Assembly (NCBI GenBank): GCA_017883615.1
Contig: JADGNF010000007.1
Location: 1 to 64,000 of the forward strand
Reading direction: 5' to 3'
DNA from: Candidatus Bathyarchaeota archaeon
Lineage (GTDB): Archaea; Thermoproteota; Bathyarchaeia; Bathyarchaeales; Bathycorpusculaceae
DNA length: 64,000 nucleotides
The translations under genes and the position numbers were made by a program. Shown here in pieces: positions 10,432-13,989 of the stretch (positions within the stretch are counted from its first letter, which is position 1; every line of letters starts with the position of its first letter). Under the pieces are notes generated by a model that saw nothing but the letters and a program-made list of their open reading frames with translations, was not told where the DNA came from and did no database searches.

Positions 10432-11010
10432 ATGTACGATGAACTCTACGCTGCGTGGCGGATAGAAACCGAAAACGGGGAACTGGGCAGTTTACCCTCC
10501 GACTTCTACGCTCGACTAGCGGGTTACCTGCACCGAATTAAGGAGGAACTCCAGATGCTCGAAATAAAAGGCATTAAGGCAACTCTACTGGAGCACGAAG
10601 GTTCAAATGCAGCGCGAATGACCCAAGATCTAACTTTTACTCGCTATCGTAAACTCGCTAAACTTCTCGTCGTAGGGAAAAAAGTGCCTATAGATTCTCT
10701 GGCGGCTGAGGAACAGACTTTTTACAATGGGGTTGCGCCCTCTGCGGAGGGGTTCGGCAGGTTCGTACAAGGCATTTTGGTAGGACAACTTATTAGAATT
10801 ACAGCAGAAATTGCTGCTGCACCGTCCGAAGCGCCGATGGCTCATAATCGGGTTACTTTACGTTTTCTTAAACCCGTGCCTTCAATCATCGGTGCCGACA
10901 TGAAGAGTTACGGTCCTTTCCTTGTGGAGGATGTGGCTTCTGTTCCTGCAGAGAACGCGAAAATCCTCGTCAAGCAGGGTTTAGCAAAGACGGTTGAGTT
11001 GCAGAAGTAG
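10432..11010 (+). CDS. GINS complex subunit Gins51 (A-B domain order)
   Basis: Abuts priS; N-terminal helical A domain and C-terminal B domain VTLRFLKPVPSIIGADMKSYGPFLVEDVASVPAENAKILVKQGLAKTVEL. Confidence 0.88.
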   Translation: MYDELYAAWRIETENGELGSLPSDFYARLAGYLHRIKEELQMLEIKGIKATLLEHEGSNAARMTQDLTFTRYRKLAKLLVVGKKVPIDSLAAEEQTFYNGVAPSAEGFGRFVQGILVGQLIRITAEIAAAPSEAPMAHNRVTLRFLKPVPSIIGADMKSYGPFLVEDVASVPAENAKILVKQGLAKTVELQK

Positions 11011-12025
11011 GTAGATTTTTAGGTTTTCTGACTTTTCGCCACAAGGCTTGGCTCACCAGAATAAGCAACGGATACGAAACTATCCAGATGACAGCGTAAA
11101 GCGGACCATAGTAAAAGTGGATATTCTGGACTTGAATGGAGTTCTCCCCGTAAATCATCCCCGTTGTGAAGATGTTAACAATCCTAAATGCGTTGATGAC
11201 GTAGGTGACTACCGCTCCAAAGACGAAGTAGCCAACTTTGCTTTTTAGGTTAATTGGCATCCGTTTGAGGAACAGCAGGATGACGACGGTGAATATGAGG
11301 AAGCTTTCGATGCCTGCGCATGGCCACGCGATGGAGAAGGTGGCTGCCGCATGAGATGCCGGGTTCGTTGCCGTGAGGATGGGCATGGTGCCTTCCGTGG
11401 CACTCTGCGTGTACGATGTGTTCGTGGCGTATCCCATGAGGTTCAGGATAACGGAGGCAAGAGCAGTTGTAGTTGGCACAAAAATCTGGAAGGGCGCGAA
11501 CTGACCGTAAGGGTAAACGTTATCGATAGTGTAGATTGTGCCAACAAGTACAAGGAAAAAGGCGGGGACCGAGAAAGCCTTCAATCCCTTGAAACCAAAC
11601 GATAGAAAGACGATTGCAATGAATAGGGCGGCGAACATCAAGTACTCCGTGGAGAGTGCCATTGAGTTTGCCCATGTGATACCGCTTTGGCTTGCTATGC
11701 TAGAGATGGCTCCGTTCAAACCCAAGTAATAGGACGCCGCAACATATACCGCAGGCAGAATCAAAGTGATGATTAAGGCGGTAGCTCGAGCAAGAGCAAA
11801 CTTGCTGATTTTGGAGGGCTGCAACTCTTCCCAGCCCAAAATCAACTCCAAGCTGATGAGCCAAATGAAGAATAGCTCGAAGGTTCTGCCCTTCCACATC
11901 AACTCAAATGTCGTGGGCTCCAGCAAGTAAAGCCAAAGAAGAGGGATTGCAAACGCAAGCAACGGTAGACTCTTAGTTAAGGTGGTTGAATGTTTTTTGG
12001 AGGTTTCCAGAATCTTTTGCATCAC
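10970..12025 (-). CDS. Archaeosortase/exosortase family protein
   Basis: Multi-TM; AWPCAGIESFLIF (candidate active-site Cys), TYVINAFRIVNIFTTGMIYG (Arg), downstream NIHFYYG. Confidence 0.85.
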   Translation of the reverse strand: MMQKILETSKKHSTTLTKSLPLLAFAIPLLWLYLLEPTTFELMWKGRTFELFFIWLISLELILGWEELQPSKISKFALARATALIITLILPAVYVAASYYLGLNGAISSIASQSGITWANSMALSTEYLMFAALFIAIVFLSFGFKGLKAFSVPAFFLVLVGTIYTIDNVYPYGQFAPFQIFVPTTTALASVILNLMGYATNTSYTQSATEGTMPILTATNPASHAAATFSIAWPCAGIESFLIFTVVILLFLKRMPINLKSKVGYFVFGAVVTYVINAFRIVNIFTTGMIYGENSIQVQNIHFYYGPLYAVIWIVSYPLLILVSQALWRKVRKPKNLPTSATQPSLLNPA

Positions 12026-12372: not shown

Positions 12373-12657
12373 GTGAATATCGTGAACGTTCCTAAAGAAG
12401 TAACTACGTACTGCCCAAAATGTAAGCAGCATCGAGCTCACACTGTCTCACTGTACAAGGCAGGCAAACGCCGAGCAATGGCAAAAGGCGAACGCCACCA
12501 CGCACGCGAAAAAGAAGGTTACGGTGGACAAAAATACCCTCTGCAGAAAGAATTCGCCAAAACCACTAAAAAACAGACTCTGCGCCTAAAATGCAAGGTG
12601 TGCAGTTTCATGAGACACAAAGACGGCATACGATTAAGAAAACTAGCAATCGTGTAA
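12373..12657 (+). CDS. rpl44e: 50S ribosomal protein L44e
   Basis: YCPKCKQHRAHTVSLYKAGKRRAMAKGERHHAREKEGYGGQKYP. Confidence 0.97.
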   Translation: MNIVNVPKEVTTYCPKCKQHRAHTVSLYKAGKRRAMAKGERHHAREKEGYGGQKYPLQKEFAKTTKKQTLRLKCKVCSFMRHKDGIRLRKLAIV

Positions 12658-12673: not shown

Positions 12674-12871
12674 ATGAGTGAATGGAATAAACTTATCCCC
12701 AAACCACGCAGCACATTCCTAAGAGTTAAATGCCCCAAATGTGGTAACGAGCAGCTTATCTTCAGTCACGCTGTTAACACAGTTAATTGCAACGTCTGTA
12801 GCGCTGTGCTCGCAGAATCCACCGGTGGAAAAGCCCAACTTAACGGCGATGTGCAAGCGGTCTTAGAGTAA
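12674..12871 (+). CDS. rps27e: 30S ribosomal protein S27e
   Basis: PRSTFLRVKCPKCGNEQLIFSHAVNTVNCNVCSAVLAESTGGKAQLN. Confidence 0.96.
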   Translation: MSEWNKLIPKPRSTFLRVKCPKCGNEQLIFSHAVNTVNCNVCSAVLAESTGGKAQLNGDVQAVLE

Positions 12872-12887: not shown

Positions 12888-13040
12888 ATGGCTGAGAGAA
12901 AGCCAGAGTGGCCAGAATCCGGAGACCTCGTAATCGTCAACGTAGAAACCGTAGCCGATTACGGAGCGTACGCCAAAATCGATGAACACTACAAGAGAGA
13001 CCAAAACTGGAACCCAACCTTGTTTAGAAGGACGAAATAG
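12888..13040 (+). pseudogene. Truncated translation initiation factor aIF2-alpha remnant (N-terminal S1 fragment only)
   Basis: 50-codon ORF MAERKPEWPESGDLVIVNVETVADYGAYAKIDEHYKRDQNWNPTLFRRTK* in the S27e-aIF2alpha-Nop10 slot; first ~35 aa match aIF2-alpha N-terminus, the rest does not, and the stop overlaps the nop10 start. Confidence 0.75.
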
Positions 13041-13219
13041 TGGTCTGGCTTTTACGCAAATGCGAAAAATGCGGTAACTACACCCTGAAAACTGACGTTT
13101 GCCCTTATTGCAGTGGCAAAGTGCACATTCCTCACCCCGCCAAGTTTTCCCCAGATGACAAATACCTAAAGTACCGCCTATCCCTCAAACGGCAGGAAGA
13201 AGAGGCAGCGGCGAAATGA
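13040..13219 (+). CDS. nop10: Ribosome biogenesis protein Nop10
   Basis: GTG start; translation (GTG)VWLLRKCEKCGNYTLKTDVCPYCSGKVHIPHPAKFSPDDKYLKYRLSLKRQEEEAAAK*; below the ORF-track length cutoff. Confidence 0.93.
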   Translation: MVWLLRKCEKCGNYTLKTDVCPYCSGKVHIPHPAKFSPDDKYLKYRLSLKRQEEEAAAK

Positions 13220-13989
13220 AGGAAACCTACATCCGGGAACGATCATCTATCCACGCAAACAACCCCATACTAATCGAAGGCTTACCTGGATTAGGACTGG
13301 TCGGTAAAATTGCCATCCGCTACCTCATTAAGCAATTAAAGGCGGAAAAGTTCGCTTATTTGTACAGTCCGCATTTTCCCTATTTCGTTTTGGTTAACAA
13401 GAAGGGCAACGTGCGGTTGCTGCGCGGTGCCTTCTACTACGTAAAGAACGGCGCGGGATCCAACGACGTAATTCTGTTCACAGGCGACAGCCAATCCCAA
13501 ACTATTGAGGGGCAATATGACATCGCCGAAAAAATGCTTACCTTCGCCAGAAAACACAATGTCCAGACAATCGCGACCATAGGTGGTTACCGCATGGAAA
13601 CCGATGGCAAACCCAAAGTCGTTGTTGCAGGCACCAACCAGCCAATTCTCGATAAGGCGCTGGCGGCTGGCGCAACAATTTCTCCGACAGGCAGTCCAAT
13701 CGTCGGAACGGCAGGCTTGATTTTGGGGCTGGCACGGTTTAAAAAAATTGATGCCCTTTGCCTTCTGGGCGAAACTCGAGGTTATCTTCCTGATCCGCTT
13801 TCGGCTCGAAGCGTTATTGAAGTTCTCAAAAACATGTTTAACTTGAACATCGATTTAGCCGGGATTGATGAGGAAATCAGCAAGGCTGAAAAGATGGTTG
13901 TGCGGCTCCAGAAGATTGAGGAGAATCGCGCAGTTCAGGCCGAGGAAACCCGCAAAGAAGAAGACAAAAAGACAACTTACATCTCATAA
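13216..13989 (+). CDS. PAC2 family proteasome assembly chaperone-like protein
   Basis: NPILIEGLPGLGLVGKIAIRYLIKQL; IGGYRMETDG; start overlaps the nop10 stop. Confidence 0.9.
   Translation: MKETYIRERSSIHANNPILIEGLPGLGLVGKIAIRYLIKQLKAEKFAYLYSPHFPYFVLVNKKGNVRLLRGAFYYVKNGAGSNDVILFTGDSQSQTIEGQYDIAEKMLTFARKHNVQTIATIGGYRMETDGKPKVVVAGTNQPILDKALAAGATISPTGSPIVGTAGLILGLARFKKIDALCLLGETRGYLPDPLSARSVIEVLKNMFNLNIDLAGIDEEISKAEKMVVRLQKIEENRAVQAEETRKEEDKKTTYIS

Follow-up and report, generated by a model that had tools for sequence, protein, structure and literature searches.

Repeated loss of operonic aIF2-alpha in a family of Bathyarchaeia and the possible use of its remnant as a leader frame for nop10

Of the operonic aIF2-alpha gene, here called copy A, only a 50-codon remnant survives immediately upstream of nop10 in the genome examined here. 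Comparison with related genomes shows securely that copy A was lost and replaced by a diverged second gene (copy B). According to the account preferred here, copy B took over the function, copy A was gutted, and its remnant frame has probably been retained for the translation of nop10 by termination-reinitiation; the probability of this whole account is put at about 0.58. The window, that is, the whole stretch of 64,000 nucleotides that was analysed, belongs to an archaeal MAG of 1.73 Mb in 79 contigs with 95% completeness, the closest named relatives of which are MAGs of Candidatus Bathyarchaeota.

The aIF2-alpha slot and its remnant

The LSIN cluster (L44E-S27E-aIF2alpha-Nop10) is known from archaea (PMC2643942). 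The window shows the identical genes in the published order L44e-S27e-aIF2alpha-Nop10 on one strand, with the adjoining replication genes as published (Table 1). It differs from the published cluster in that the third gene is gutted, leaving only the remnant, and a diverged copy takes its place in trans. The distance from the S27e stop to the nop10 start is 168 nt here, compared with 803-822 nt in intact slots of the same genus. An exosortase/archaeosortase-like membrane protein (PF09721, 2e-7), predicted at 10970-12025 on the opposite (-) strand, separates the replication genes from the L44e-S27e cluster.

Table 1. Features of the aIF2-alpha slot and its neighbourhood in the window.
Feature	Position	Strand	Remarks
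Ribosomal protein L44e (LSIN cluster)	12373..12657	+	presumed identity; gene order as in PMC2643942
Ribosomal protein S27e	12674..12871	+	PF01667 match at C77:12704-12859
Remnant ORF of operonic aIF2-alpha (copy A)	12888..13040	+	50 codons; native ATG to stop overlapping nop10
Retained 5' part of aIF2-alpha	12888..12999	+	~36 codons, S1 domain start; aligned to intact relatives
Retained 3' end of aIF2-alpha	13000..13040	+	last ~40 nt; 1-nt offset before TTTAGAAGG
AGAAGG, Shine-Dalgarno-like motif for nop10	13026..13031	+	last aIF2-alpha Arg codons; 8 nt 5' of GTG
TAGTG, remnant stop and nop10 start	13038..13042	+	1-nt overlap
nop10	13040..13219	+	GTG start at 13040; PF04135 match at C77:13046-13195
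PAC2-family protein (COG2047-like nop10 neighbour)	13216..13989	+	PF09754, 4e-41; overlaps nop10 by 4 nt

The original prediction had described a 50-codon aIF2-alpha fragment between S27e and Nop10 with a stop codon overlapping the nop10 GTG, and both statements hold. It had also assigned the first ~35 residues to the start of the S1 domain and called the rest unrelated. The former is confirmed, as codons 1 to ~36 match aIF2-alpha in alignment to intact relatives, but the latter is not, the rest being the 3' end of the gene, in part out of frame. The last bases of the remnant, TTTAGAAGGACGAAATAG, correspond to the usual aIF2-alpha 3' end (TTTAGAAGGGAAAAATAG in relatives), and TTTAGAAGG...AAATAG is likewise the normal end of this gene. 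The ~22 nt preceding it match the 3' ends of intact genes when shifted by 1 nt, as expected of a 1-nt deletion, with a mean identity of 0.46-0.48 versus 0.30-0.33 in shuffles (p 0.005-0.02). Since the first ~36 codons and the 3' end are both present, the slot has undergone an internal deletion that left the two gene ends; the net loss from the middle of copy A is about 635 nt. Neither this surviving 3' end nor the ribosome-binding motif for nop10 within it was noticed in the earlier reading.

A functional aIF2-alpha combines the S1 (PF00575) and EIF_2_alpha (PF07541) domains. For the remnant ORF, a Pfam domain search returned no match, S1 included. A sensitive aIF2-alpha profile gave two matches in the window's genome and also in 3 of the 6 other genomes with remnants; the second match in the window's genome, which is not among the matches listed, is presumably the remnant.

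A diverged full-length copy elsewhere in the genome

The original prediction had considered a real deletion with the intact gene located elsewhere and had proposed a search for a full-length aIF2-alpha in the rest of the genome. This option is borne out, but the gene found is a diverged paralogue and not the original moved to a new place. Copy B, on contig C69 of the same genome, encodes a full-length protein of 262 aa that contains both the S1 and the EIF_2_alpha domain and matches solved aIF2-alpha structures across nearly its entire length. No second, operonic-type aIF2-alpha of full length was found besides copy B across the window's genome. That contig C69 is foreign was rejected: its tetranucleotide composition fits the genome (correlation with the window 0.919; window pieces versus the remainder 0.79-0.93), as do the ordinary core genes it bears.

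The protein tree places copy B in a clade of 18 sequences with support of 100/100, apart from the operonic copies A. Derivation from outside the family was also tested; in a class-wide profile scan of 191 genomes, the B group ranks top and is found in this family only. The copy B of G003, a genome of the same genus as the window's, groups with copies of another genus (93/95), which suggests transfer or contamination, the latter being listed at 8% for G003.

Copy B is flanked by proteins of 100 aa and 112 aa (L002 710-1012 and 1942-2280), neither of which has a Pfam match. The distribution of these neighbours is patchy, confined to a small number of the family's genera and for the most part coinciding with copy B; G005 has a broken 112-aa frame. 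In G025, which has only copy A, copy B is absent between the two small neighbours; at most ~9 nt there resemble the 3' end of copy B, too short a stretch to be claimed as a remnant of it.

Distribution and repeated loss across the family

The family comparison covered 91 genomes, including that of the window (G000). Copy A alone occurs in 69 of them, both copies in 11, and copy B alone in 7 (G000, G006, G022, G023, G024, G030 and G044); the remaining 4 are incomplete and without a match. A shrunken slot is present in exactly the seven B-only genomes, so that the comparison with related genomes advised by the original prediction reveals six other MAGs with this feature. Genomes of the three types are interleaved on the tree of neighbouring proteins. 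When this is used as the species tree, the B-only state needs 5 changes, at least 4 of which are forced by strong branches, and copy A is reconstructed as having been lost independently at least four to five times.

An intact second copy in the genome and a matching presence/absence pattern in the relatives are the marks of a pseudogene produced by paralogue displacement, and both are found here. As in other duplications in which the ancestral copy is lost, some genomes (11) still have the ancestral A beside the derived B, and A is gone in others (7). What is peculiar here is the repeated loss of the operonic copy of an essential translation factor, with both gene ends left behind each time. 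No loss of aIF2-alpha in Bathyarchaeia was found reported in the open-access literature.

The original prediction had also raised an assembly collapse, in which the true genome would hold an intact aIF2-alpha in the slot. Such errors are conceivable in a MAG of 79 contigs, but the distribution of A and B across the 91 genomes is a pattern for which a collapse cannot account, with the six other genomes alike, always and only where copy A is missing. Moreover, the remnant has substitutions of its own and a tail that would not arise by joining the two flanks, and copy B is available for the job. This explanation is very unlikely, the least probable of those considered.

In Candidatus Bathyarchaeum-type genomes (L182, L189, L191), a nop10-PAC2 pair lies apart from the S27e/aIF2-alpha cluster; bin115 (L182, L190) also carries the usual clustered nop10.

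The AGAAGG motif before nop10

AGAAGG is present in six of the seven remnants. The last two Arg codons of intact A genes are AGA AGG in 32 of 33 cases, while at all other sites of these genes, AGG accounts for 21 and AGA for 65 of 539 Arg codons. The B genes, which are not located 5' of nop10, vary at this site, mostly with AAG or AAA followed by AGA, CGA, CGG or CGC. In G006, AGAAGG is retained even though the reading frame of the tail is lost. Taken together, the codon bias in A, the variation in B and the retention in G006 show, at the level of sequence comparison, that the motif is constrained as DNA or RNA. The 3' end of the 16S rRNA of the genome, GGATCACCTCCT, pairs with AGGAGG. A Shine-Dalgarno site should be a conserved complement of this end, some 5-10 nt ahead of the start codon; AGAAGG lies 8 nt from the GTG but has one mismatch to AGGAGG. 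The motif is probably the ribosome-binding (Shine-Dalgarno) site of nop10.

The remnant frames and the translation of nop10

The remnant ORFs comprise 50 codons in G000, 42 in G006, 41 in G022, 18 in G023, 34 in G024, 44 in G030 and 15 in G044, and relative to the nop10 start their stops lie, in the same order, at -1, +12, 0, 0, 0, +5 and 0 nt. In all seven, nothing interrupts the frame between the native start position and this stop at -1 to +12 nt; six stops fall within -1 to +5 nt, in keeping with the overlap or gap of a few nt that marks termination-reinitiation pairs. The deletion structures differ among the remnants. In G023 and G044, the frame survived further, different deletions, and in the heavily eroded G030, a frame of such kind is found in 1.2% of shuffles of its interior. 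If the phase of a deletion is random, with 1/3 for each, six of seven stops within -1 to +5 nt correspond to a hand-calculated binomial p of about 0.007. The value is 0.045 if G024 is counted as a failure (5/7) or if 4/5 independent lineages are scored. With the range widened to +13, the test is uninformative, since a second frame would end at +12/+13, in the TTTTAG of the tail.

The peptides themselves show little sign of being preserved. Private changes at first and second codon positions of the 5' part number 11 in G024, 5 in G006 and 3 in G000, with mostly 0-3 in intact relatives, and the amino-acid changes hit conserved positions; a test for peptide-level constraint on this part found it relaxed. 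These data bear on the proposal in the original prediction of a retained mini-protein. Such a 50-aa peptide would have its own function, for instance the regulation of aIF2 or RNA binding by half an S1 domain. The open ORF and the likeness of residues 1-36 to aIF2-alpha favour this, but an S1 domain requires about 74 residues and no Pfam domain is recognised. The peptides of the sister lineages, 15-50 aa long, have little in common past the first residues, beyond which that of G030 is unrelated. Given the relaxed constraint, this proposal is rejected as highly improbable.

In the preferred account, copy A became functionless after copy B took over, and the middle of the gene was deleted. The parts left, namely the start codon, some open frame and the 3' end whose stop overlaps nop10, would have been retained for nop10 translation. 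Ribosomes would first translate the short leader, then terminate where nop10 begins and reinitiate there, aided by the AGAAGG in the last codons of the old gene.

In an archaeon and a bacterium, most of the overlapping gene pairs tested show strict coupling by termination-reinitiation (PMC6728339). At distances above ~20 nt the coupling breaks down; for E. coli, the final 15 nt of the gene upstream are enough for it (PMC10666635). The remnants share with such pairs a spacing of -1 or 0 nt and a Shine-Dalgarno-like motif in the final codons of the gene upstream, and the sufficiency of short upstream fragments in E. coli is in line with their proposed role. They would differ in that the upstream gene has no product function and its frame would serve coupling alone.

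A passive pseudogene could explain much of this as well. Copy A would be lost in the same way, and only its 3' end would be under selection, as the ribosome-binding site of nop10; the 5' part, like the open frame, would be a chance leftover of a recent loss. This fits the persistence of AGAAGG in G006 despite the lost peptide frame of the tail, the drift of the 5' peptide at amino-acid-changing positions and the missing start codon of G024, which has ATA instead of ATG, and a chance retention of the frame is compatible with p values of 0.007-0.05. It fits less well with the finding that in each of the seven slots, the eroded G030 included, the frame stays open and stops close to nop10, and with the further in-frame shortening in two lineages. 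It is the most serious competitor, though the less probable one.

The same features, the seven frames ending near nop10 with G030 and the shortened G023 and G044 among them, favour a leader frame. That reading is weakened by the moderate p values, the ATA in G024, the imperfect AGAAGG and G006, where the frame ends at +12 before a CTG. The nop10 of G006 seemingly starts with this CTG, as the stretch from the in-frame stop upstream of it to the conserved codon 2 contains no ATG, GTG or TTG (L043). Translation of the leader frame and its coupling to nop10 are thus moderately supported by the frames, whose p of about 0.007-0.05 is suggestive only. The chances are even that the two ends of a dead gene have been repeatedly and independently retained as a dedicated leader ORF without a product, as short as 15 codons, that drives the translation of the next gene by coupling.

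Biological significance

The operonic aIF2-alpha of archaea, a member of a cluster thought to be retained for a functional link, is dispensable given a second copy. After the loss of copy A, selection probably protects the translation of the next gene. The seven trimmed slots of varied length provide a ready series on the minimal upstream gene for termination-reinitiation and, if the leader-frame account is true, would represent a natural minimal version of archaeal termination-reinitiation coupling.
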